From Clostridia bacterium (GTDB lineage Bacteria; Bacillota; Peptococcia; DRI-13; UBA5745), in NCBI GenBank assembly GCA_018434325.1, contig JAHDPO010000035.1, forward strand, positions 1-64,000: a stretch of DNA of 64,000 bases, in the 5' to 3' direction. Positions 32,419-46,123 of the stretch are shown one piece after another. Positions within the stretch are counted from its first letter, which is position 1; the number at the start of each line of letters is the position of its first letter. Position numbers and translations under genes: made by a program. The notes under the pieces were generated by a model, which saw only the letters and a program-made list of their open reading frames with translations, did no database searches and had not been told where the DNA came from.

Positions 32419-32451
32419 ACTAAACTCATTTCCTGTCATCTACTATCATTT

Positions 32452-32473
32452 TAAAATCCTTGAAACCATTGAT
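32452..32473. other. Candidate attL core
   Basis: TAAAATCCTT-N6-ATTGAT here matches TAAAATCCTT-N6-ATTGAT at 46102-46123, beside the rlmD stop codon. The N6 differs. Similarity over 22 bases at both ends, with repeats for integrase binding just inside, fits attachment sites, but the identity is short. Confidence 0.45.
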
Positions 32474-32621: not shown

Positions 32622-33557
32622 TTATAACTCTATTAGTTCAAACGCGTAATTATCTTTTCTCATTACATGTTTGAAGCAAGGGACATTATTTATATTTGCA
32701 ATTTGAATAATTTTATTTTTATCTTCATCACTTACATCTTTTCCAAGAATAATTTTCTTTGGGATTGGTAAGTTTACCGCTTGGCTCGTTTTTTGAGATT
32801 CAGCAAGCAGCAGAAGTCTCCATTCATGTTCATATGACCATTGAGTTGATTTTCTTGTTAATGAATCAATGTAGAAAGAATTGTTTAGTTTTCCCCCATT
32901 AAAGAAAGAGTCATCCACTTCTAGGATTTCATCCGTATACCTAACTGGTAACAATAAATCCGTCAAATCATTTTTTAATTCTTTGATATTATAACCTATG
33001 CAGAACCCTGTATAATCTGCGGAATAATGAGACCACATCGGTGGTGAATCATTAACATCAGAAAAGCTACATATCCTATGTAATTTATCATTCTCAATCT
33101 TTAAATCCTCTTGAAATTTCTGTAACTCAACTTGAACCTTTTCATCTGCAATACTCCATATGTCTTTATACGATTCCATTTCATGCTCGTATACACCTAT
33201 GCATTTCGCAAATTCAATTTTAAAGCTATCCTGGTCAGTGAAGTCATCAACGCTTATTGCTAACCTTAAACCAGTTCGCTTGTAAAAGAGATTAATAAAA
33301 GTTTGATATAACACTTTCCATCTTTTTTTAAAGTCTACATAAAGCGAACCTTCATAAGGATCATTCAGACATGATGGTGCGGAAGCATATAGAATGTTAT
33401 TCTTTAATGCGTCCAAATGAGCATCTGAAGCTGTTCTGTACTTATACACTATGTCAGGCATGTTTACAAACTTTAATTTAGTAGCTTTGATGGTAGCTTC
33501 ATCACTATTTATTGTTTTAAACAGTAGATCATTAAATTCTTCTATCCATTCATCCAT
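32622..33557 (-). CDS. DUF2971 protein
   Basis: 311 residues, soluble. The DUF2971 signature is visible: VYKYRTASDAHLDALKNNILYASAP, LNDPYEG, ICSFSDVNDSPPMWSHYSADYTGFCIGY and QWSYEHEWRLL. Family members recur in prophages and defence islands, but no activity is established. It is the last leftward gene of the element, next to the proposed left end. Its product contains no obvious catalytic motif that I can name. Confidence 0.85.
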   Translation of the reverse strand: MDEWIEEFNDLLFKTINSDEATIKATKLKFVNMPDIVYKYRTASDAHLDALKNNILYASAPSCLNDPYEGSLYVDFKKRWKVLYQTFINLFYKRTGLRLAISVDDFTDQDSFKIEFAKCIGVYEHEMESYKDIWSIADEKVQVELQKFQEDLKIENDKLHRICSFSDVNDSPPMWSHYSADYTGFCIGYNIKELKNDLTDLLLPVRYTDEILEVDDSFFNGGKLNNSFYIDSLTRKSTQWSYEHEWRLLLLAESQKTSQAVNLPIPKKIILGKDVSDEDKNKIIQIANINNVPCFKHVMRKDNYAFELIEL

Positions 33558-33587: not shown

Positions 33588-34559
33588 TTACAACATGTCA
33601 TAGAATGTTTTTTCGCTAATTACAATCAGATCATGACCTTTTAAAATAAGTTCTTCAGCTTTCTTCTGTTTATTTGACTTACCATCCTTTATTGAAGAGC
33701 AATAATCATTATTTCCAAGAACCAGGATGTTTGTGTTTTTAGTTACTGAATCAGAAGGGATCCCCCCAAGGTTTGTCACAATCTGCAATGCTTCTTTTCT
33801 TTGGAATTTTTCCAGAGTACCAGTGAAGCAAACCGCCATTCCATAAATCGGATGACTACTATCAAATTCTTCAGTTTCAGGCTTGAAGTCAGCTAGGTCA
33901 AAACTTTTTCCATGTGAAGATTTTAGAAGTGCAGTGAGGTCAATGCAGTTTTCATTGCAATGATTTCTCATATACTCATAGACCTTTTGTGTAATTTCAC
34001 AATCTGCTGTTGCTCTATGCTGCACATCTACTGATATTTCAAACTCATTTGCCAGGTCAATTAATCTATGCCTTATATCCTTGAACAATCTTCTACTGAT
34101 CCGCATAGTGTCAATGAAGTCATTAGAAAATGGCTTATTCAGGCAGGATGCACAGTTGTCATATATGAAGTTAACATCAAAGTTAGCATTGTGAGCAATG
34201 ATGACCGAATCACCCAAGAAATTTATCAATTCAGGTAGCACCTTTTCAATTTTCGGTGCATCCTTTACCATTTCATTTGTGATTCCAGTCAATTCTGTTA
34301 TGTATTCATCTATTATGTTTTCGGGTTTCACCAATGTTGTAAACTCTGAAATCTTTTCACCATTGGAATATTTTATTGCTGCAATTTCAATTATTTCATC
34401 AAAAGCTGGATCAAGTCCTGTTGTTTCCAAGTCAAGAACAACATATTCATCAACGAATGCAAGTTGGCTTTTCCCTTTGCTTTCCCTTATTGTCTTCGGT
34501 ATTCCACCGATAGACACCCCATTTTCTAAATCAAAGGATATTGTGATTCCTAATGACAT
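33588..34559 (-). CDS. DEDD 3'-5' exonuclease with C-terminal BRCT domain
   Basis: 323 residues. Exonuclease motifs: Exo I VVLDLETTGLD, Exo II AHNANFDVNF and Exo III HRATADCE with the catalytic His and Asp. The C-terminal 90 residues form a BRCT domain (GMAVCFTGTLEKFQRKEALQ ... SKNTN-like VTKNTNILVLG). This resembles DnaQ-like epsilon/PolC-type exonucleases fused to BRCT in phages. It could edit DNA ends during element or host DNA processing. A repeat motif (34592-34611) stands 33 bases before the start. Confidence 0.87.
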   Translation of the reverse strand: MSLGITISFDLENGVSIGGIPKTIRESKGKSQLAFVDEYVVLDLETTGLDPAFDEIIEIAAIKYSNGEKISEFTTLVKPENIIDEYITELTGITNEMVKDAPKIEKVLPELINFLGDSVIIAHNANFDVNFIYDNCASCLNKPFSNDFIDTMRISRRLFKDIRHRLIDLANEFEISVDVQHRATADCEITQKVYEYMRNHCNENCIDLTALLKSSHGKSFDLADFKPETEEFDSSHPIYGMAVCFTGTLEKFQRKEALQIVTNLGGIPSDSVTKNTNILVLGNNDYCSSIKDGKSNKQKKAEELILKGHDLIVISEKTFYDML

Positions 34560-34591
34560 TTGAATTCAACCCCTTTCTTGGTCTTCAGAAG

Positions 34592-34611
34592 TCATATAAT
34601 CGCCACATACA
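34592..34611 (-). promoter_or_regulatory. TCATATAA direct-repeat motif, copy 1 (degenerate)
   Basis: TCATATAA (34592-34599) with a weaker second half (CCACATAC) 11 bases later. It lies 33 bases upstream of the exonuclease-BRCT start on the minus strand, where it reads as TTATATGA. Confidence 0.5.
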
Positions 34612-34663
34612 AGATTTTTATTGGGTGGCAATACCAAAACTAATCATTATCCTATGTAAATCA

Positions 34664-35206
34664 TCACTGCAATTTGTATTCAAACGAATCTCCTCTAATT
34701 GTGATATTTCCGTTTCTTAAATTCTTATTTAAGAATTCCCTTGCATATGGTTGCAGATTATATGAAAATTCTGTGCCAAATGTACTTAAGCTTGATGACC
34801 TATAAATTATATGTTTTGCTTCTAATCCTGCCTTAAGACCATCATTATATTCTATTAAACCGCTTGTCCTAAATGATTTATTAATTGAATCATAAAAAAC
34901 ACTTATAAGTAGACCCATTTCTTCAGGACTCATATATGTTTTCATGTAATTCTTACCGATCTTATCAAAACCAAAGAATTTATTTCGGAAAAATTTAATA
35001 ATCTTGAAAATAACTATCATCATAAAATATGATGAAGTGATTATTAAGCATAGACTGATATACATTTGATATTGTAAAATCCCAGTCAATCCCAGCCTTT
35101 CAATTTGCTTTTCCGAAAGTAATGTTAGTATCAAAGATGCAATTAGTGCTATGACAGCCAATTCATTTAATTTTATCTTTTCTATAATTGATTTTAGAAT
35201 TCCCAT
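34664..35206 (-). CDS. SieB-like superinfection exclusion membrane protein
   Basis: About 180 residues. Two close hydrophobic segments (LAVIALIASLILTLL and MYISLCLIITSSYFMMIVIF) and a cytoplasmic C-terminus fit the SieB superinfection exclusion family, as does the LSEKQIERLGLTG stretch. SieB proteins block infection by related phages. Start at ATG 35206; a TTG 12 bases upstream lies too close to AAAGG. Assigned from layout and partial motif, not by a search. Confidence 0.55.
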   Translation of the reverse strand: MGILKSIIEKIKLNELAVIALIASLILTLLSEKQIERLGLTGILQYQMYISLCLIITSSYFMMIVIFKIIKFFRNKFFGFDKIGKNYMKTYMSPEEMGLLISVFYDSINKSFRTSGLIEYNDGLKAGLEAKHIIYRSSSLSTFGTEFSYNLQPYAREFLNKNLRNGNITIRGDSFEYKLQ

Positions 35207-35236
35207 TTGCACACCCAACCTTTACTGGATTTTTCA

Positions 35237-35638
35237 TCAAAATTCAAATTGATCAATTGTCATAGTTGGTTCTATGATCTTCACTGCCCCCTGGTCATCA
35301 ATTACCAGGATATGAAGCTGCACCAATTCACGAAAATATGAAGACAACATGGAACATTGCCGTTTGTACTTAACATGCTTTGGTATTGCAATTGCATATT
35401 TGTCTTCCCTTGATGTCATGCATTTTACTAATTGCCCCAGACATGTATTAAAATCAGTTCCAATGGCTTCTGTAATTCCTTTAGCTTCCACAACCCATCT
35501 ATCTGACCCCTTAACTGCAATTAGGTCAACCTGACCATCCTTTTCAACTTCATATCCTTGTTGTTCAAAGTATTCTTCAATGGATGCCTGGACAAATGCT
35601 TCATAAGGAAAGACCTTTTCTTTTTTGAAATACTTCAC
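35237..35638 (-). CDS. PD-(D/E)XK-like nuclease protein
   Basis: About 133 residues. GQVDLIAVKGSDRWVVEAKG gives the D-x(n)-ExK core of the restriction-endonuclease fold, and DFNTCLGQLVKCM follows as the supporting helix with a Gln. Upstream is FVQASIEEYFEQQGYEVEKD, an N-terminal helix usual in Mrr/NERD-like proteins. Start at GTG 35638, with GGGGTGG five bases before; an in-frame GTG at 35647 is too close. Whether it cuts DNA or binds it is unknown. A motif (35683-35701) stands 45 bases before the start. Confidence 0.7.
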   Translation of the reverse strand: MKYFKKEKVFPYEAFVQASIEEYFEQQGYEVEKDGQVDLIAVKGSDRWVVEAKGITEAIGTDFNTCLGQLVKCMTSREDKYAIAIPKHVKYKRQCSMLSSYFRELVQLHILVIDDQGAVKIIEPTMTIDQFEF

Positions 35639-35682
35639 GTTCACCACCCCAATATTGACCCTTTTATTTTAGGCTTCAGACC

Positions 35683-35701
35683 TCATATAAACGTCATATA
35701 A
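35683..35701 (-). promoter_or_regulatory. TCATATAA direct-repeat motif, copy 2
   Basis: Two perfect TCATATAA (35683-35690, 35694-35701), 11 bases apart. A TAAAAT box follows about 11 bases downstream on the minus strand. It sits between the membrane coiled-coil gene and the nuclease gene. Confidence 0.6.
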
Positions 35702-35726
35702 CTTATTTCATTGGTTATTCCATAAA

Positions 35727-36410
35727 CTATTCGACCAATCTTAAACTAAGCAGATAGTTCCTGATGTCTTCTCGCAATTTGGCACTAAGTTCTTCGATTT
35801 CAGTATGAAATGTACCATATACCTTCTCATTGGTCTTTGTATCCATCTTTGTATCTCTTGCCATGGCAAATGACATGCTGTATTTAACATCAATTTCATA
35901 CATTTTAAATATATTTCCAATCTCGTTACACTTTTGTCTAGCACATATAAACACATCATAAAATTCTTTTTTGTAGAATGGTGCGTTTCTCTCTGCTGCC
36001 AATGAAAACTGATTAAAGGCTTCAGTGTACCTTTTGTATATATCCATATTATATTTTTCAAGGCCTTCTCCATCAACTGGTCGATCGGTAAGACCACTTG
36101 GGTATAAATGTCTTGTATGTATAACACAATCAAACATCTTTTCCCAAATTTCTTGATAGATTCCATATTCATTGTCATATTGTGCTTTGGATATATACAG
36201 TGCTTTATCTTGAATAGCATTAATTCTTTGAAGTTCCTTCTTCAATTCCGACTTATAATGTTCGATCTCTTTGGCATGTTCGGACTTCTCTTTTTCTAAT
36301 ATTCTGTTTGCCCAAACCTTTCCCAGCCAGCTTGACAGTGCGAATACTATTGCACCACCACCGCCAAGTCCAGTAATAATAGCAAATGCGAGTTCAAATG
36401 CATTAGTCAT
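35727..36410 (-). CDS. Membrane-anchored coiled-coil protein
   Basis: 227 residues. An N-terminal membrane segment (FELAFAIITGLGGGGAIVFALSSWLG) is followed by a Lys/Glu-rich coiled coil (about 37-70) and a globular helical domain. I do not recognise the family; similar anchored coiled-coil proteins occur among prophage accessory genes. GGGGGG before the ATG. Leftward, between the HEPN-like/zinc protein and the nuclease. Confidence 0.65.
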   Translation of the reverse strand: MTNAFELAFAIITGLGGGGAIVFALSSWLGKVWANRILEKEKSEHAKEIEHYKSELKKELQRINAIQDKALYISKAQYDNEYGIYQEIWEKMFDCVIHTRHLYPSGLTDRPVDGEGLEKYNMDIYKRYTEAFNQFSLAAERNAPFYKKEFYDVFICARQKCNEIGNIFKMYEIDVKYSMSFAMARDTKMDTKTNEKVYGTFHTEIEELSAKLREDIRNYLLSLRLVE

Positions 36411-36439
36411 AATACGTGACCCCCCTTCAAAACAACAAT

Positions 36440-37303
36440 CTATTTTATTTCAGAAATAATACCACCTAAAGACTTTTTGTAGGCGGTTTCTGCCTTTTCA
36501 GTTTCATTCCTTGCAACAATGCCATCCAGGATCATAACAATCCCATCTTTCAACACAGGGAAGTATTTAAGGCATTCTTCTTCAGATAGTTCATGAATCC
36601 CTGTACTCACTACACCGTAAATCTGTGGTTGATCTGTCATCATATCAGGAAGGAATCCCTTCAGCAGCTTGATTTTTTCTTCTATCCCATTTCTAATTTG
36701 ATTTTCATCCTTGGTCTTCCTATATTCAAATTCCTGTTCAGTCAGTTTACCAGCACTTTCAGCTTCTTTGAAGGCATCATAGACCAGCTTTTCAATGATC
36801 CTTCTTAGATAAACAAATGATCCAATTCCAACGTTTACTGAAAAAAGTCTGATCGCAGTGCTTAATTCAGGATAATAATCGCCAAGCAACTTTCTAAATT
36901 TCTTTATTTGTGGATTTTCAATATCCCTATAAGATGGATATTGACCAACTTTGATTATCTTACTGCCCCTTTTAGTAAAGAAGTATTCCATCTTATGAGA
37001 TTCATTCAAACTGCATTTAAAACAAAAATACCAGTGATCAAAGATTTCAATTGGATCATGCTTTAAATAGTTTGAACCGTTCAAACTACCTGTACTACTC
37101 AGGGCATTTATAATATTTTTAACTTCTATATCACTGAAACCACTATCATAGATGAAAACCTTTTTATCACCACATTCAGGGCAGAACATTTCAAACCGAT
37201 CTTTTCTATTGCATATATTTACGAGTTGTTGAGAACTGTTTTCAACATTAAATTCGTCAAATAAATTTGATGAAGTTATAAAATCTAGCAATTTGTTATC
37301 CAT
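36440..37303 (-). CDS. Zinc-finger protein of unknown function
   Basis: About 287 residues. Two Cys pairs (FCPECGDK and YFCFKCSLN) form a likely zinc ribbon, with a helical C-terminal half (VGIGSFVYLRRIIEKLVYDAF ... STGIHELSEEECLKYFPVL). The helical part faintly recalls HEPN/DUF4145-like regions, which I cannot confirm. Start at ATG 37303 after GGGGGTG. First gene after the tape-measure operon's terminator. Confidence 0.6.
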   Translation of the reverse strand: MDNKLLDFITSSNLFDEFNVENSSQQLVNICNRKDRFEMFCPECGDKKVFIYDSGFSDIEVKNIINALSSTGSLNGSNYLKHDPIEIFDHWYFCFKCSLNESHKMEYFFTKRGSKIIKVGQYPSYRDIENPQIKKFRKLLGDYYPELSTAIRLFSVNVGIGSFVYLRRIIEKLVYDAFKEAESAGKLTEQEFEYRKTKDENQIRNGIEEKIKLLKGFLPDMMTDQPQIYGVVSTGIHELSEEECLKYFPVLKDGIVMILDGIVARNETEKAETAYKKSLGGIISEIK

Positions 37304-37408
37304 TGGAACACCCCCTTGTTTTTCATCCATTGAAATTACCTTTTCAATTCACTATACCATATTTTACAAATTTCTTCCAATATTACATGAATCATTAAAA
37401 AATCGACT

Positions 37409-37427
37409 TCATATAAATGCCATATAA
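37409..37427 (-). promoter_or_regulatory. TCATATAA direct-repeat motif, copy 3
   Basis: TCATATAA (37409-37416) and CCATATAA (37420-37427), 11 bases apart, in the gap between the tape-measure terminator and the zinc-finger gene, which starts 106 bases away. Confidence 0.55.
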
Positions 37428-37432
37428 CCAAT

Positions 37433-37464
37433 AAAAAAAGACCTTGGACTTATGATCCAAGGTC
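37433..37464 (-). terminator. Terminator of the tape-measure operon
   Basis: On the minus strand GACCTTGGA-TCATAAG-TCCAAGGTC is followed by seven T (37433-37439). It lies 18 bases after the tape-measure stop. A convincing rho-independent terminator. Confidence 0.85.
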
Positions 37465-37481
37465 AAAACATCCTTATTCTG

Positions 37482-39197
37482 TTAGTGAATACCTTCCGCA
37501 GCAGTTTCCAATGCTTCAGTTGTCTTCACTGCAATGTAGTCAACTATTCCATCCAGGTCAAGTTCACTGTTCACATGATTTGTGATTCCACCAAAATCAA
37601 CTTTGACTTCAGCAGTTGTGAATTTGTTGACCGCTTCTTTTTCAGCAACATCACGCATGTATGCAAGAATTTCATTGGACATGTCCATTTTGTTTGCCAT
37701 CTTTGAAGTGTTCGCAGCAGTATTGTCAACCCCTGCTTTCAAACTATCCCAATCCATTCCACTGTTCTGTTGTTTTGCTTTCGCTGCTGCATCATTCTGT
37801 GCAGCAATGATTGCAGCCTGTCTTGACTGTTTCGCAGCTTCATTTTCCGCTGCTGCTTTCGCTGCAAAGCTGACCTGACCAATCAACCCAATGTTCACAC
37901 CTGGGATTTTGTTCAGCAAATTGATGAAATCATTAATCAATCCAATTGCACCATTTATCATGCTTTCCAGTGCAGTCAACACTGCAACTTTCACATTTCC
38001 TGTGACTGTTTGAATGGCATCCATTGCAATCAACCATGCAACCCTGATTCCACCGACTGACTGCACCCATTTATAAATGAATCCAATCAGAATTCCAATT
38101 GCCATTGCAATCCACATAATTGGATTTTGAAGCATAGCAATTGCCAATGCTCTGTTTGCTTCTTCTCCAAGCCAGGTCACCGCAGTGGAAATTCCCATTG
38201 CAACTGCAAATATTCCAACCGCTGACGCAAGTCCAACAAATATTGGTGCAAGTGTTGACCAATTATCATAAATCCACTGGGCACCATGACCGATCCCTTG
38301 AATCACAGGATCAAAAGCCTGAAGTAACATGTTTCCAACCACTGTTCCAACCTGTTCAAAGGTCATTGGCATTTTTGCAAACCTTGCATTGACTTCATCA
38401 GCAGCAGTAAACATTGCCCCCTTGATGACTGCAGCAGTGATTTCACCATTCTTTGATAGTTCCTTCATTGCACCCATTGGTTTTCCCATATAGTCTGCAA
38501 TTGCCTGTGCAAGAAGTGGTGCATTCTCCATGATTGACCTGAATTCATCCCCTTGCAGTTTTCCTGCTGCCATTGCTTGTGTCAACTGATACATTGCAGC
38601 AGTCTGTTCCTGGACAGAAGCACCACCAATGACAAAGTTCTTGTTCATCAATTCAGTGAAACCAACCATTTCTTCATTGCTTTTGAAAGCCTTACCAGTC
38701 AAGATTCCAAGTTTTCCAACCACTTCAGCAGTTGACTGATAGGATGACCTTGACCTGTTTGCGGATGCCATAATCATGTTTTGAAGATCATCAGTTGACT
38801 GAAGACCATCATTGATTAAATCCAATCTTGCTTTAGCGGAAGTCATTGAATCGGAAAGCTGGATGATTTTATCAATACCGAATGCAACACCCATTGTGGT
38901 TGCAATCATTTTGATTTTCCCAAGTAGAATATCAGCACCATTGTTCTTCATGCTGTTATTCAACTTGTTCTGTGCTTCATTTGCCTGTTTAATCGATTGT
39001 TCTATTTGATCAAAGGCTATGTCTGCCTTGTTCAATTCCGTCCTTGCAGCTTGAATTGATGCTGTGTCCACTGCATGACTGGAAGCAGTCTGTAGTGATT
39101 CAAAGCTACTGATGACCATGTTCATTGCATTGTTTATTGATTTCAATGGTGATGTCATTCCATCATAGATTTGAATTGCTGATCTTATTGTTGCCAT
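37482..39197 (-). CDS. Phage tail tape-measure protein
   Basis: 571 residues. The N-terminal tape-measure domain is clear: IMASANRSRSSYQSTAEVVG, LMNKNFVIGGASVQEQTAAM and QLTQAMAAGKLQGDEFRSIM with the NAPLLAQAIADYMG segment. Hydrophobic segments follow (WSTLAPIFVGLASAVGIF and IMWIAMAIGILIGFIY), then an Ala/Lys-rich coiled coil. In phages it sets tail length and inserts into the host membrane. Here no tail tube, baseplate, head or terminase gene accompanies it. AAAGGATG precedes the ATG. It is the last gene before a strong terminator. Confidence 0.88.
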   Translation of the reverse strand: MATIRSAIQIYDGMTSPLKSINNAMNMVISSFESLQTASSHAVDTASIQAARTELNKADIAFDQIEQSIKQANEAQNKLNNSMKNNGADILLGKIKMIATTMGVAFGIDKIIQLSDSMTSAKARLDLINDGLQSTDDLQNMIMASANRSRSSYQSTAEVVGKLGILTGKAFKSNEEMVGFTELMNKNFVIGGASVQEQTAAMYQLTQAMAAGKLQGDEFRSIMENAPLLAQAIADYMGKPMGAMKELSKNGEITAAVIKGAMFTAADEVNARFAKMPMTFEQVGTVVGNMLLQAFDPVIQGIGHGAQWIYDNWSTLAPIFVGLASAVGIFAVAMGISTAVTWLGEEANRALAIAMLQNPIMWIAMAIGILIGFIYKWVQSVGGIRVAWLIAMDAIQTVTGNVKVAVLTALESMINGAIGLINDFINLLNKIPGVNIGLIGQVSFAAKAAAENEAAKQSRQAAIIAAQNDAAAKAKQQNSGMDWDSLKAGVDNTAANTSKMANKMDMSNEILAYMRDVAEKEAVNKFTTAEVKVDFGGITNHVNSELDLDGIVDYIAVKTTEALETAAEGIH

Positions 39198-39204
39198 ATT
39201 TTTT

Positions 39205-39543
39205 TCACATCCTTTCTTTTATCCTTCTTTCTTTTTCAACCCGAAGCATTGAATAATAAAGGGCTTCATAATCTGTTTTGGTCTTAAACAACAGACTATT
39301 CATCAGTTCCTTATCCAGTTGCTTCTGATTCTTCTTCATCAGCTTTGGAAACATTCCTTTGAGGATCTCAAATCCAGGGTGATCCTTGTTAAGAATCATT
39401 AAACCGCCTGGTGCTATTCGCCCAAGTTCTTCATGAAGTGGGATGCTTGGATCAGGTTTGATGCTGATTTCTTGAATATAGTCTAGATAGCTGAACCTGA
39501 CCGCCCATAATTTTTCGTTTATGACTTCAATGTTCTTGTTCAC
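39205..39543 (-). CDS. Hypothetical protein before tape measure
   Basis: 112 residues with a charged, Lys-rich C-terminus. GTG start behind GGCGGTG. It ends 7 bases before the tape-measure ATG, the position of tail-assembly chaperones in phages, but no motif confirms this. No slippery frameshift sequence was evident. Confidence 0.5.
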   Translation of the reverse strand: MNKNIEVINEKLWAVRFSYLDYIQEISIKPDPSIPLHEELGRIAPGGLMILNKDHPGFEILKGMFPKLMKKNQKQLDKELMNSLLFKTKTDYEALYYSMLRVEKERRIKERM

Positions 39544-39568
39544 TCATTTCACCGCCCTTTCCTTCACT

Positions 39569-39901
39569 TTACATCAGGGAATTCAATCCGCTTGCATGAA
39601 GCTGATATACCTTTCTCTGCTTATATCCAATAAAGTCTGATATTTCATTGAAGGTTTTCCCGTTGATATATCGTTCAAAGAGAACCATCCGTTCCCTCTG
39701 ATCTTCCAATCCATCAATTTTGGTGACTGAATCCTTTACACAATCAACATACATGAAAACCTTATCAACAGTATCATCTATCAACTTCTTTGTTTCATCA
39801 ATGCTTGCTTCCTTCATGGACTTTTCTAATTCAAGCAATTGAATGTCAATGTACTCTTTCAGGTGCTTAACCTTTGATAGTTTTCGTTTTATTTCTTCCA
39901 T
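39569..39901 (-). CDS. DUF1492-like phage transcriptional regulator
   Basis: 110 residues. The C-terminal 50 residues (DQRERMVLFERYINGKTFNEISDFIGYKQRKVYQLH) match a sigma-70 region-4-like helix-turn-helix of DUF1492/ArpU-type phage proteins, which commonly control late genes. The N-terminal half is a charged helix pair. GGGGGA before the ATG. Lies 13 bases after the sigma-like gene. Confidence 0.75.
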   Translation of the reverse strand: MEEIKRKLSKVKHLKEYIDIQLLELEKSMKEASIDETKKLIDDTVDKVFMYVDCVKDSVTKIDGLEDQRERMVLFERYINGKTFNEISDFIGYKQRKVYQLHASGLNSLM

Positions 39902-39914
39902 GTTGGTTCCCCCT

Positions 39915-40700
39915 TTACACGATTAGCTGAAGCAACTTTTGTTTCTTTGATCGAATATCTGCCTGACTGTAACGTTTATACCTTTCCTCAATGCCAATCT
40001 TTTTCATGACAGTCCTTTCAACACTACTTTCGAAACCATTTTTGAAGGACGTTAAACCTGTATTTCTCAAACCTTCAGAACAATAGTCAAAATCCTTTAA
40101 AAGTTCATAGGCTTGTCCTTTTCTTAGCTTTCTTAACGCATCACGTTCTAGGTTTCCAATGTATGATGCTGAACAACCAAATCCAATTGCAATCTCATTG
40201 AATGTCTTTTCTTGATAATAATGTGATTCCAGGACTTCCTTCTGTTTTGGTGATACAAATGTCATTGCCCTATCTAAAACTTCATGAAGTGAATCATTAT
40301 AGATAGAATGTTCAGCTTCCAAAAACTCATGTTCAGCAGTATCATCAGAAATGCTGTCTTGTATCATGACATCTTCTATCCCATTAATGGTGTCATTCAA
40401 GGAAACCATTTTCTGACCGCTTGCCCTGTTGATTCCCATTGTTTTGTAAAACTCATTTCTGCAAGAGTTGAAAAGATATGTAGTAAAATTGAATTCACAA
40501 TCTTCAGGGTACGCTTTAACCGCCTTTAAAAGTGCAAAGTATGCTGATTGAATAAGGTCATCTTCATCATAATGATTGCTTTGCCCTATCTTGCAATACT
40601 TCATTGCCCATAGTTTTATAAGACCGTATACCGATAGCCATAGATTTTCAATTAATGATCCATTAGTTTTACAAGCAATTGCCAATTCATTTGCCGTCAC
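39915..40700 (-). CDS. Sigma-70-family RNA polymerase sigma factor
   Basis: About 261 residues. Region 2-like (KYCKIGQSNHYDEDDLIQSAYFALLKAVKAY ... NFTTYLFNSCRNEF) and region 4-like (MTFVSPKQKEVLESHYYQEKTFNEIAIGFGCSASYIGNLERDALRKL) domains identify an ECF-like sigma factor, with a 60-residue C-terminal extension. A sigma factor inside a phage-like element suggests it directs transcription of the element's own promoters, perhaps the TCATATAA motif. Start at GTG 40700, since GGGGGG lies seven bases before; longer frames lack a site. Confidence 0.8.
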   Translation of the reverse strand: MTANELAIACKTNGSLIENLWLSVYGLIKLWAMKYCKIGQSNHYDEDDLIQSAYFALLKAVKAYPEDCEFNFTTYLFNSCRNEFYKTMGINRASGQKMVSLNDTINGIEDVMIQDSISDDTAEHEFLEAEHSIYNDSLHEVLDRAMTFVSPKQKEVLESHYYQEKTFNEIAIGFGCSASYIGNLERDALRKLRKGQAYELLKDFDYCSEGLRNTGLTSFKNGFESSVERTVMKKIGIEERYKRYSQADIRSKKQKLLQLIV

Positions 40701-40782
40701 CTGAATTCCCCCCATATTGAAAATTAGAGGGAACACAGTCTTCTATGTTCCCTCTTAATGATTGCATTTATGAACCTTCTTA

Positions 40783-41091
40783 CTATTTTCTAAACTGAAG
40801 AAGGTTTCCATTAAACCCAAGTTCAAAAGCTCTATTCATCATTGCAATCCGATCAACCGTTGACAAAGATGTTCCCAAAGTGAGAGCCTTTTCTTTTAAC
40901 TTGTAAATTTCATACTTGTCCGAATCCTGCTTCACAAGATCAATGGCTTCCTGCTTGTCGGCAAGCTGTGGATTCATCTTCAGAAAATATTCTTCATTCT
41001 TTGGATCATCAGGGAACAGTTCTTTGAATGCAAGCACATATGACATTGCTTTCACTGTTTCATTTTCCATGTGGAAGTTCAGATCATTCAT
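40783..41091 (-). CDS. Small hypothetical protein
   Basis: 102 residues, acidic N-terminus and a helical C-terminus (LSTVDRIAMMNRAFELGFNGN). No family recognised. Nine bases after the stop of the upstream coiled-coil gene; its own ribosome binding site is poor. Confidence 0.45.
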   Translation of the reverse strand: MNDLNFHMENETVKAMSYVLAFKELFPDDPKNEEYFLKMNPQLADKQEAIDLVKQDSDKYEIYKLKEKALTLGTSLSTVDRIAMMNRAFELGFNGNLLQFRK

Positions 41092-41099
41092 GAACTGTG

Positions 41100-41447
41100 T
41101 CAGTTTGTCCCCTGGCAGACCATTTTAAGTTTGAATTCACTAACAAGTTGCTGTGATTCTCTGACCTGTTCATCAGTTGGCTTTGTTTCAGCAGCATAGT
41201 ATTCCTGATAAGCCTTTTTTTCATTTTCCTTGATATTTTCAATGATCTGCTTTTCGATTGTTTCAGCCATCAGATCATATTTTTCTTTTACAACTTCCGC
41301 TTCTGCCTGGATTTCCTGATCAGATTTTAATATCTGAATCCTGCCGATTGTCTTGTAAACCTGTTTTTTCACCTTTTGGATTTGTGTCTGTTTTTCATCA
41401 TTAAGCACCACCAATTTTTCAAGCTGGGTTTCCACAAATGTTTTCAT
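41100..41447 (-). CDS. Coiled-coil protein
   Basis: 115 residues, Lys/Glu/Gln-rich and helical throughout, suggesting an extended coiled coil. GAAAGGATG precedes the ATG. No family recognised; part of the leftward regulatory operon. Confidence 0.5.
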   Translation of the reverse strand: MKTFVETQLEKLVVLNDEKQTQIQKVKKQVYKTIGRIQILKSDQEIQAEAEVVKEKYDLMAETIEKQIIENIKENEKKAYQEYYAAETKPTDEQVRESQQLVSEFKLKMVCQGTN

Positions 41448-41562
41448 AATTTCTACATCCTTTCATCTTCCAAAATATTGTTTAATTGCTTTACCAGGTC
41501 TTTTATGCTTATTACAGTTTTTCAACTGTACAAGGTCAAACTTAAAGGTTGTTTTATTGCAT

Positions 41563-42105
41563 TCACCAGGGATATAAATATTTCTTTAAATCCATTAATG
41601 TGTGCAGCAGCATTGTTGGATGCTCACCTTTTAGCACCTTCTTAATGGTCTTTGTCGAATACGCTTTTTCATAAAGTATTGCTTGAAACCTCATGTTTTC
41701 AAGTGCTTGCAAGACCTTCAGCAACTTTTGATGCTTGCCTATCCTCAAATTTTGCTCTGTAGCAACCTGCATATAATCAAATGGATAGTTGAAGTTGATA
41801 TTGTGCTTTTTAGCCAGGTTTTCCATCCTATACTGAAGGTCAATATATCCACCCTTTGTGCTGTTCTGAATCGCCCTATATGCCTTTACCTTCCCACACT
41901 TCCGACACTTCAATTTTCCATCAACTATATAAAGCTTGGTGAATCTCTCACCACATGTTGGACACATCATAAAGCACTTTTCACCAAAGCCAGTCTTCTG
42001 TCTTGATATGAAAATTTCATGATCATGTCCTTCCAAGGTGAACTTCAATTTTTTTGTCTTTGGTTTTAGAATTTCCTTCAGTTGCTTTATATCTATTTCA
42101 TACAT
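41563..42105 (-). CDS. Zinc-ribbon protein of the element
   Basis: 180 residues. CPTCGERFTKLYIVDGKLKCRKCG is a zinc ribbon (CxxC-x(n)-CxxC), preceded by a beta-rich stretch and followed by a basic helical tail. Possibly DNA- or RNA-binding. First gene of the operon that ends with tape measure, so it may be an early regulator. The motif copy at 42343-42361 lies 238 bases upstream. Confidence 0.6.
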   Translation of the reverse strand: MYEIDIKQLKEILKPKTKKLKFTLEGHDHEIFISRQKTGFGEKCFMMCPTCGERFTKLYIVDGKLKCRKCGKVKAYRAIQNSTKGGYIDLQYRMENLAKKHNINFNYPFDYMQVATEQNLRIGKHQKLLKVLQALENMRFQAILYEKAYSTKTIKKVLKGEHPTMLLHTLMDLKKYLYPW

Positions 42106-42163
42106 GACTTGTCCCTTTCAAAACCCTAAATACTAAGCATTTTCAACTGTATTATCAATAACA

Positions 42164-42204
42164 CCTTGTCCTTACCTTGTCCTTACCTTGGTAAAACCTT
42201 GGTA
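42164..42204. repeat. Tandem 11-bp repeats CCTTGTCCTTA
   Basis: CCTTGTCCTTA occurs twice in tandem (42164-42185), followed by CCTTGGTAAAA and CCTTGGTA (42186-42204). AAGCATTTTCAAC also repeats near 42136 and 42216. Together they form a repeat-rich leader before the zinc-ribbon gene. The noncoding stretch 42106-42881 holds only this, the motif copy 4 and the iteron region. Confidence 0.55.
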
Positions 42205-42342
42205 TTTTTTCAACAAAGCATTTTCAACCTGAATATCAACGACTTCTTTTCCTCTTTTTAGGGCATGTAAAATCGGCAAATGATCATTCTTCCAGTCAAT
42301 CAAAGATCATGTTTTCATTGGTGTTTATTCGGCTTTTATAGG

Positions 42343-42361
42343 TCATATAACGGTCATATAA
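42343..42361 (-). promoter_or_regulatory. TCATATAA direct-repeat motif, copy 4
   Basis: Two perfect TCATATAA (42343-42350, 42354-42361), 11 bases apart, identical in spacing to copy 2. It is upstream of the zinc-ribbon/sigma/tape-measure operon. Confidence 0.6.
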
Positions 42362-42614
42362 TCATTCAACTTCATTGTTTGAGTATTTGTTACTGTGCAA
42401 TAGAAAAACACCAGGATCAAAGCAGTCTGAAAGGCGGAACAGACCGAATATCTTTGACCTGGTGTCTTTAACGTATTTTTTCATCTTAAGCTTAACATGA
42501 GATAAACATGAATTACAATGAAGTAAAATTTTTTAAACTACTAAGGAACTGAAAAATTCAAGACTAGTATTCCATGACCCCCTTAACCGTTGCAATTCCT
42601 ATGTATTCAAGTTC

Positions 42615-42910
42615 TGTACAAGATGTGATCAAGATGTGATCAAGATGATTTTGTCATCTTGATCACCCCTAAACCATTGATTTTACTAGGTTTCATGGTT
42701 CTCTGATCAAGATTGATCAAGATGACCCTCTATTATTCTATATAATTTATTTTTATAGTATATTTTTTGTAAGTTATAACATTAGTATATTTTTATCTTA
42801 ACTATAAAGAAGTTCAAACTAACTTGATCAACCCGATCATCTATGACAAATGATGATAAATGACATTAAATGAAAATATTTTTACATGTCATCTTGATCA
42901 CCATCTTGAA
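42615..42910. other. Iteron-like cluster, candidate replication origin
   Basis: TGATCAAGATG recurs: TGTACAAGATG (42615-42625, 9/11), then perfect copies at 42626-42636 and 42637-42647 (11-bp period), the inverted CATCTTGATCA at 42655-42665, TGATCAAGAT at 42704-42713, a perfect copy at 42714-42724 and an inverted copy at 42890-42900. Copy 42637 and its inverted mate form a 13-bp stem. An AT-rich stretch (about 42730-42830) follows. Iterons beside an AT-rich block are the usual layout of a Rep-dependent origin. Confidence 0.6.
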
Positions 42911-43753: not shown

Positions 43754-43948
43754 CTATGAAACAAGGTCTTCAACCTTAACCCCTAATGCTTTGGCTATTC
43801 GCCCAACAGTCACAGGTCTTGGTTCTTGACTCCCCCTTTTGATCCTTGCAATTGTTGCCTGAGCAATTCCAGTGTTTTCTGCTAGTTCTTCAGAAGAAAG
43901 ACAGGAGTTTGCCATTGCCAATTCAAGCTTCTTAGAATCAATTTTCAT
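43754..43948 (-). CDS. Cro-like XRE helix-turn-helix protein
   Basis: 64 residues: a single XRE helix-turn-helix (LSSEELAENTGIAQATIARIKRGSQEP ... VTVGRIAKALGVKVEDLV). GGGGG precedes the ATG. Divergent from the XRE repressor at 44157 across an operator-rich gap, the arrangement of a phage cI/cro switch. Confidence 0.8.
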   Translation of the reverse strand: MKIDSKKLELAMANSCLSSEELAENTGIAQATIARIKRGSQEPRPVTVGRIAKALGVKVEDLVS

Positions 43949-44711: not shown

Positions 44712-45989
44712 ATGACTGGTGGAGTAAGAAAAAGAGGAAGTTCCTGGTCTTATTATTTTGACCTTGGAAAAGTTGATGGAAAAAGAAGAAAAAAGGAAAA
44801 GGGTGGATTCAAGACAAAGAAGGAAGCTGAAATTGCTTTGACAAAGGCAATGAATGAATTCAATAATTCAGGACTTGTTTTTGAACCAACTGAAATCAGT
44901 GTATCTGACTATCTTGATTTTTGGTTTGATAATTACTGCAAGATGAATCTGAAGTACAACACACAGCTTGGATATATTCAGATCATAGAAAATCATTTGA
45001 AACCTAATTTTGGCTCATATAAGCTAAAAGCACTTAACAGTGCCAGCATTCAGGAATACACAAATAAATTGAAACTGAATGGACTTTCCAAAAGTTCTGT
45101 TGTGGGAATAATCTCCACGCTTTCAGGTGCTTTAAATTATGCAATTGAACCACTGCACTACATTCAAACAAATCCTTGTGACAGGATAAAATATCCAAAG
45201 TATTCTTCAGACAAACAAAAGGAAACCAGGGTGATTATATCTTCTGATGACTTCAAAAAGATACTAGAAAGGTTTCCTGAATCCTCAATATATTATGTTC
45301 CATTGCTCATAGGCTATTATACTGGTTTGAGAATATCAGAAGCATTTGCATTGACCTGGGATGACATTGACTTTGAGGAAAGAACAATATCAGTCAACAA
45401 GATCACTGTCAAAAGAAACTATGGTGTGGATGTCAGAAAAGTATTGGAGCAGAAAGGAAAGAAAGAAGAAAAATCCGCTTGGTATTTTGGCAGTACCAAA
45501 ACATATTCATCAAATAGAATAATAAAATTCGGTGATACTCTGCTTGCTGCATTAAAGAATGCCAAAACCCAACAAATGAAAAACAAAGTCCTATATGGTG
45601 AATACTATACAAACATCTATTTGAAAAAAGAAAAAGATGAAAAGGGTGAAGACATCTTCAGGTTGATTGAAATTGAAAGAAGTATTCCTTGTTCATTGCC
45701 AAAGGTTCAGATGGTCTGTGTACATGAAAATGGGCAATTTGTTTCAACCGATACATTCAAATATGCTTCCAGGGTGATCCACAATGAACTGAAATTGGCT
45801 TTCAATTATCATTCACTAAGGCACACACATGCAACCATCCTGATTGAAAATGGTGCTAATGTGAAGGATGTCCAGGAAAGACTTGGTCATAATAATATCG
45901 AAACCACATTGCAGACTTATGTTCACAGTACGGATACTTTGAGAAATAAAACCGTCAGTATATTTGAAAATGCAACAAAGATCATGTAA
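44712..45989 (+). CDS. Tyrosine site-specific integrase
   Basis: 425 residues. The N-terminal arm-binding domain (RKRGSSWSYYFDLGKVDGK) and core-binding domain (about 60-165) precede the catalytic domain with Arg in GLRISEAF, His-x-x-Arg in YHSLRHTHAT, His in RLGHNN and the Tyr nucleophile in LQTYVHST. All catalytic residues are present. AAAGGA before the ATG. Rightward, next to the repeats that resemble its arm sites. It probably inserted the element at rlmD. Confidence 0.92.
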   Translation: MTGGVRKRGSSWSYYFDLGKVDGKRRKKEKGGFKTKKEAEIALTKAMNEFNNSGLVFEPTEISVSDYLDFWFDNYCKMNLKYNTQLGYIQIIENHLKPNFGSYKLKALNSASIQEYTNKLKLNGLSKSSVVGIISTLSGALNYAIEPLHYIQTNPCDRIKYPKYSSDKQKETRVIISSDDFKKILERFPESSIYYVPLLIGYYTGLRISEAFALTWDDIDFEERTISVNKITVKRNYGVDVRKVLEQKGKKEEKSAWYFGSTKTYSSNRIIKFGDTLLAALKNAKTQQMKNKVLYGEYYTNIYLKKEKDEKGEDIFRLIEIERSIPCSLPKVQMVCVHENGQFVSTDTFKYASRVIHNELKLAFNYHSLRHTHATILIENGANVKDVQERLGHNNIETTLQTYVHSTDTLRNKTVSIFENATKIM

Positions 45990-46081: not shown

Positions 46082-46101
46082 AATTGATATTTCCCACCTT
46101 A

Positions 46102-46123
46102 TAAAATCCTTATACCTATTGAT
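46102..46123. other. Candidate attR core at the rlmD 3' end
   Basis: TAAAATCCTT-N6-ATTGAT, sharing the outer parts with 32452-32473. It overlaps the last codons of rlmD (stop at 46116-46118), so insertion leaves the gene intact. Short identity limits confidence. Confidence 0.45.

Follow-up and report, generated by a model that had tools for sequence, protein, structure and literature searches.

The window analysed here, a stretch of 64,000 nucleotides from a Clostridia bacterium (contig JAHDPO010000035.1), contains at about 32.45-46.1 kb an element with weakly defined ends that looks, from its gene content, like a phage satellite. Its leftward units are preceded by a tandem repeat, TCATATAA-N3-TCATATAA, exact at two sites (S2 and S4), with one mismatch at S3 and three mismatches at S1. 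Judged from the sequence, this pairing of TTATATGA is a genuine and conserved DNA signal, standing where the units of the satellite start. The four sites are as follows.

42343..42361, minus strand: S4, TTATATGA-CCG-TTATATGA, exact; heads the long unit running from gene g42105 through sigma-like, DUF1492-like and tail-assembly-chaperone-like (TAC-like) genes to the tape measure protein (TMP) gene
35683..35701, minus strand: S2, TTATATGA-CGT-TTATATGA, exact; 36 bp ahead of an Mrr-like/SieB-like pair
37409..37427, minus strand: S3, TTATATGG-CAT-TTATATGA, one mismatch; immediately after the terminator of the TMP unit
34592..34610, minus strand: S1, GTATGTGG-CGA-TTATATGA, weak, three mismatches; 33 bp ahead of an exonuclease/BRCT gene

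The number of tandem matches with up to three mismatches in the window was 11 against 0.82 expected from shuffled sequences, and the octamer itself was found 13 times against 3.2 expected. In the 3.83-Mb genome, TTATATG-N4-TTATATG in its exact form occurs three times, all inside the element, and with up to two mismatches 37 times against 41 for the reversed control. The loosened tandem is thus at background level, and only the near-exact form is informative. An independent matrix, covering the tandem plus 9 bp downstream, was built from 36 sites of other phages and satellites (about 17 in effective number, the window being excluded) and scored over 127,946 window positions on both strands. The highest ranks were S2 (first), S4 (second), S1 (third) and S3 (fourth), exactly the reported sites, and S4 moved to rank 1 when an upstream box (described below) was included. 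By scoring of the 19-bp tandem only, S1 dropped to rank 5, behind the reverse reading of S4 (42343). Since a window-independent matrix ranks the four sites 1-4, the weak site S1 is probably real, too.

All four sites are oriented with the leftward unit behind them, and the signal itself is oriented, reading 5'-YYATATGR-CSG-TTATATGA-G-3' on the minus strand. The distance from site to start codon is 33 bp for S1, 36 bp for S2, 79 bp for S3 (106 bp to a better-spaced start) and 238 bp for S4. The original prediction, made from the letters of the window, had placed two exact tandems, one near-exact and one weak tandem upstream of separate leftward units, at 33-238 bases from the start; both the sites and their location were confirmed, with uniform orientation. 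Within this genome the sites stand above background and are confined to the element, which holds for the exact form but not for the form with two mismatches. Not noticed originally was that complete phages carry this signal among their late genes, in many cases within a terminator.

Form of the signal and its recurrence

By alignment of 40 sites, the consensus YYATATGR-CSG-TTATATGA-G was obtained, with the two halves about equally conserved and C-S-G in the centre, together with a second box, GAAATATTCAAG, spanning -28 to -17. With similar sites left out, -28 was precisely the best-scoring position of this box for 20 of the 40 sites, among more than 100 offsets at each. The full form therefore consists, from 5' to 3', of the box GAAATATTCAAG, 16 bp, the tandem YYATATGR-CSG-TTATATGA, often GGTCAG, and then a ribosome-binding site or leader. 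The half-site TYATATRA comes close to a palindrome, and the two halves joined by CSG form a near dyad. The tandem as originally described was retained, but the signal is oriented and, where complete, bipartite. In the window the box is present in full only at S4, weak at S2 and absent at S1 and S3. At S4, the best match of the leave-cluster-out matrix within 70 bp on either side falls exactly on the box listed below with the window's terminators.

42378..42389, minus strand: upstream box of S4, CAAATACTCAAA (consensus GAAATATTCAAG), 28 bp before S4
42404..42466, minus strand: intrinsic-terminator-like hairpin, ACACCAGG..CCTGGTGTTTTT, closing the unit upstream of S4
37433..37464, minus strand: intrinsic terminator, GACCTTGGATCATAAGTCCAAGGTC-TTTTTTT, between the TMP gene and S3

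Of the 40 sites, 25 lie at a terminator, 11 of them in the hairpin loop and 14 no more than 75 bp behind it; for the gene starts of these loci the figure is 64 of 495. In several loci (L177, L118, L212 and L180) only 4-8 bp separate the tandem from the ribosome-binding site, and between the latter and the terminator nothing but the box and the tandem is conserved in sequence. An earlier stem test at low threshold (12 of 40 sites against 7.2 shuffled) was uninformative, because many arms are alike, and was superseded by the terminator test.

The same site was found in the satellites L177, L180, L182-L185, L212, L218, L229, L241 and L255 and in phage contigs, the latter encoding portal, major capsid, sheath, tube, XkdN-type chaperone and holin; the control gave no match in 15 records. 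Both in other satellites and in phiC2-like myophages it lies in sense orientation, with scaffold/capsid, tail-chaperone and holin genes following it. A retrieval test was made on 32 phage records collected by tail sheath, with the motif ignored in the selection. Nine matches were obtained in nine of these records, all nine in sense and located before scaffold-side genes or the XkdN-type chaperone; since some records are near-identical, about six represent independent cases. The reversed matrix gave one match. Among 398 Bacillota genomes, the strict motif was matched twice, once in the window and once, by chance, at chromosomal pilus genes. With the loose pattern, viral contigs yielded two useful loci among matches mostly due to chance. 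The motif was found neither in phiC2 nor in two faecal phages with related TMP genes; a search of relatives lacking the motif for other 11-bp tandems gave no recurrent equivalent, but CAAGGT iteron-like arrays were seen.

Gene content of the satellite

The element contains an integrase and a repressor-like helix-turn-helix (HTH) protein, is small and occupies the integration locus of its relatives, all of which are features of satellites. Genes for capsid, portal and large terminase were not found in the element. The predicted genes are as follows.

41563..42105, minus strand: g42105, CxxC-containing protein (phmmer 8e-45 to homologues in L183/L184/L231)
39915..40736, minus strand: sigma-70-like factor, regions 2 and 4 (Pfam PF04542/PF04545, phrog_351)
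39569..39901, minus strand: DUF1492-like small regulator, sigma region-4-like (phrog_36/phrog_248), grouping in the tree with phage DUF1492 proteins
39205..39543, minus strand: putative TAC-like protein, assigned by its position before the TMP gene; no family match
37482..39197, minus strand: TMP, 571 aa (PF20155 1.9e-47, phrog_1068 3.5e-157)
36440..37330 and 35727-36410, minus strand: cargo pair behind S3, first and second gene, unknown function (phrog_25239, phrog_26391)
35237..35647 and 34664-35218, minus strand: cargo pair behind S2, Mrr_cat-like (PF04471) and SieB-like (PF14163)
33588..34559, minus strand: first gene of the cargo pair behind S1, RNase_T exonuclease plus BRCT (PF00929, PF00533)
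32622-33557, minus strand: second gene of the S1 cargo pair, DUF2971 (PF11185)
44712..45989, plus strand: tyrosine integrase (PF00589), beside rlmD
43754-43948: Cro/C1-like HTH protein, repressor-like

The unit behind S4 comprises seven genes, including the sigma-like, DUF1492-like, chaperone-like and tape measure genes, and three cargo pairs follow S3, S2 and S1. The cargo at 33588-36410 (SieB-like, Mrr-like, exonuclease-BRCT and DUF2971) is possibly anti-phage. The homologues of g42105 in L183/L184/L231 follow an equivalent site 230 bp before their start, and the arrangement of S4 and g42105 recurs in L183/L184. By search with the chaperone-like protein, about 40 relatives were found, mostly elements of 10-15 kb with integrase, HTH, primase, sigma-like and/or DUF1492-like, chaperone-like and tape measure proteins, and the chaperone-like gene before the TMP gene is kept in about 40 elements. 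Close relatives of the integrase (phmmer 1e-180 to 1e-191) are present in the motif-bearing satellites L184, L229 and L241, which are also near-identical in architecture, and the integrase adjoins rlmD as in L184. Named phages gave no DNA match to the element.

An imperfect repeat (19/24) around AAAATCCTT at 32450-32473 and 46100-46123 marks the presumed ends; these are candidate att sites, but the repeat is not significant alone and could arise by chance. The 238-bp leader of S4 contains a fragment of the terminase small subunit and four CAAGGT repeats at 11-bp spacing. The fragment (44 residues, 42175-42306, minus strand, phrog_309 7e-12), which may be a remnant or a minimal gene, overlaps these iteron-like repeats ([AC]CAAGGT, 42163-42202, minus strand). 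CAAGGT-like arrays also follow the primase gene in L166 (4673-4937) and L208 (5532-5796), and such arrays are likely replication iterons of these satellites. A second repeat set, TGATCAAGAT, with direct and inverted copies at 42626-42723 and 42891 between S4 and g43439, is possibly a second origin or regulatory array. The satellite L053/L180 (IMGVR_UViG_2861627031_000001) carries four motif sites, a terminase small subunit, an 890-aa TMP gene and an inserted transposase; genes of the sigma-like or DUF1492-like kind were not found in it.

Proposed late promoter, alternatives and candidate readers

The reading favoured here, with moderate confidence, is that the four sites represent an atypical late promoter common to a group of phiC2-like Bacillota myophages and their satellites, from which the satellite units would be started in the manner of the Mu late promoters or of P2/P4 Ogr-delta. 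A terminator before or around many sites and a ribosome-binding site that can begin only 4-8 bp behind would place the start in or just behind the tandem, and the tandem should then contain the -10 region. As the box and the tandem are the sole conserved sequence in this interval, they should form the promoter if the genes are expressed from there. What the sequences show directly is the signal itself, its conservation, orientation and position and its presence in phages; promoter function, the start point and dependence on a late factor are inferred. A transcript from the upstream unit would be stopped at the terminator, and a new transcript would start inside or behind it; a trans-acting late factor, of the satellite or of the helper, would activate the tail-module and cargo units of the satellite and simultaneously the head, tail and lysis units of the phage. 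The recurrence of the signal suggests that phage and satellite obey the same late-gene switch, and the sharing would point to cross-regulation between them. The earlier idea of a regulon-wide promoter or activator site survives to this extent, the signal being above background, before every leftward unit and before operons of relatives, but not with the sigma-like factor as its reader. A wider proposal is put forward only tentatively, and with less confidence: the signal may define a bipartite, terminator-embedded class of Bacillota late promoters that lacks sigma-70 hexamers and is read by a novel factor, copied by satellites before the tail module and every cargo pair so that the late programme of the helper would release defence-like cargo and chimeric-tail genes.

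Several observations weigh against a late promoter. For the -35/-10 pair of the main sigma (TTGACA, 16-18 bp, TATAAT-like), none of the 40 sites scored 9.5 or higher, and the mean was below that of shuffled sequences; the box is missing at two of the four sites in the window; neither a motif-bearing phage nor a helper-type prophage with a related tape measure gene was found in this genome, where a single tape measure gene was detected; many of the collected viral contigs are fragments and several are near-duplicates. By tree comparison, no regulator gene tracks the motif cleanly, and the terS promoters beside the phage DUF1492 gene in G458, G451 and G452 lack the motif and carry other repeats. 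The tree labels were set by hand, and L252 was marked 'minus' although it is part of the motif-bearing record G461.

The main rival, itself rather unlikely, is an RNA-level element, the tandem acting in the transcript at intergenic terminators of late operons as the target of an antitermination factor, a processing enzyme or a regulator of translation, by which head, tail and lysis expression would be tuned. It would account for the 11 sites in a terminator hairpin loop, where the arms vary in sequence yet pair, for the repeats being part of a long hairpin stem in L249, L283 and L284, for internal pairing in some sites (UGACC/GGUCA) and for sites as near as 4-8 bp before the ribosome-binding site; in phiC2, the tube-chaperone boundary is marked by a plain terminator hairpin. 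At the 14 sites behind a terminator, however, an antitermination signal could serve no purpose and transcription requires a promoter, several strong sites show no inner pairing, and the box lies at a fixed distance outside the hairpin and is kept whether or not a hairpin is present. An operator, by which a repressor of the element such as the Cro/C1-like HTH protein would silence all units in the integrated state, appears improbable: near-palindromic halves in a near-dyad tandem are a form that dimeric repressors can bind, and HTH_3 proteins occur in nearly all elements, but the asymmetric G positions are kept in a single orientation, the motif-blind matches were all in sense, the sites precede late structural and lysis genes instead of the repressor-integrase switch, and the repressor gene in the window has no site. 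A classical pho-box-type activator was rejected because the implied start would fall behind the start codon in several cases.

Reading of the sites as a -35/-10 promoter by the element's own sigma-like factor, as originally suggested, is the least probable of these. Although its gene sits in the unit behind S4 and the 17-19 bp from the box to the first TATATG resemble a -35/-10 pair, most motif-bearing elements have no such gene, the three that carry it do not group together as a clade, and relatives where no motif was found contain about 19 sigma genes. No relatives of the protein were found in the genome contigs and viral contigs searched; the nearest proteins within the class are distant sigma factors only. 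The DUF1492-like protein, the other reader suggested at the outset, is a better candidate, as no other regulator family was found in most of the phages and satellites that bear the motif, but the adjoining terS promoters in three phages lack it. DUF1492-family genes occur in most motif-bearing elements, mainly in one part of the tree and with L218 and L185 as exceptions, and such a gene lies directly upstream of a site in L118, L229 and L241, not in the window. A DUF1492-type protein is a possible reader, and a host factor may also serve. In five satellites (sat184, 241, 255, 428 and 450), a Mor-like gene (PF08765 just below cut-off, phrog_532) precedes a site by 27-340 bp; such genes were not seen elsewhere.

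If the late promoter is real, it would provide a sequence handle on how little-known Gram-positive phage satellites time their genes to the helper phage, and the SieB-like, Mrr-like and exonuclease cargo would be controlled together with tail genes. The signal would predict starts of transcription units from sequence alone and link satellites to candidate helper phages.

Comparison with known systems

In the Ogr-delta system of P2 and P4, one late-promoter signal is present in helper and satellite, so that a single activator can serve both. Here, too, phage late genes and satellite operons carry one and the same signal, but the Ogr site, TGT-N12-ACA, is unrelated to it in sequence, and no Ogr/delta protein was found. 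In phage Mu, the late promoters Plys, PI, PP and Pmom are activated by C and Pm by Mor, several promoters per phage sharing one signal with no normal -35 (PMC4287176, PMC4461284). Like these, the present signal precedes lysis, head and tail genes, and in several satellites a Mor-like gene stands immediately ahead of a site; the sites of Mor and C are, however, dyads (Pm centred at -43.5), different from the present tandem, which would have to cover the start region, and neither the window nor the motif-bearing phages searched yielded a Mor-like activator gene.

The late activators Ltr, Alt, ArpU, RinA and DUF1492 of Gram-positive phages read direct repeats, which in the known cases lie at -76 to -32 or -107 to -42, ahead of a single promoter (PMC13123087). 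The present signal is likewise a direct repeat and DUF1492 genes are present in most motif-bearing elements, but the tandem abuts the ribosome-binding site and recurs at several places, unlike repeats far upstream (about -110 to -32), and the terS promoters beside DUF1492 lack it.

The PLE satellites, Vibrio elements of the lytic phage ICP1, use their own TAC and TMP to build chimeric tails (PMC12987554). The window satellite likewise has a chaperone-like gene and a TMP shorter than those of related phages (571 aa, the phiC2 protein having 762 aa and both ends being conserved), which would predict a shorter tail. Different from PLE, the present elements are integrated, belong to Bacillota, are related to phiC2-type tails and are known from sequence alone. 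By analogy with PLE, we infer that the window element would build chimeric tails, and it would become testable whether satellites outside Vibrio likewise assemble chimeric tails, using a chaperone and a tape measure protein of their own.

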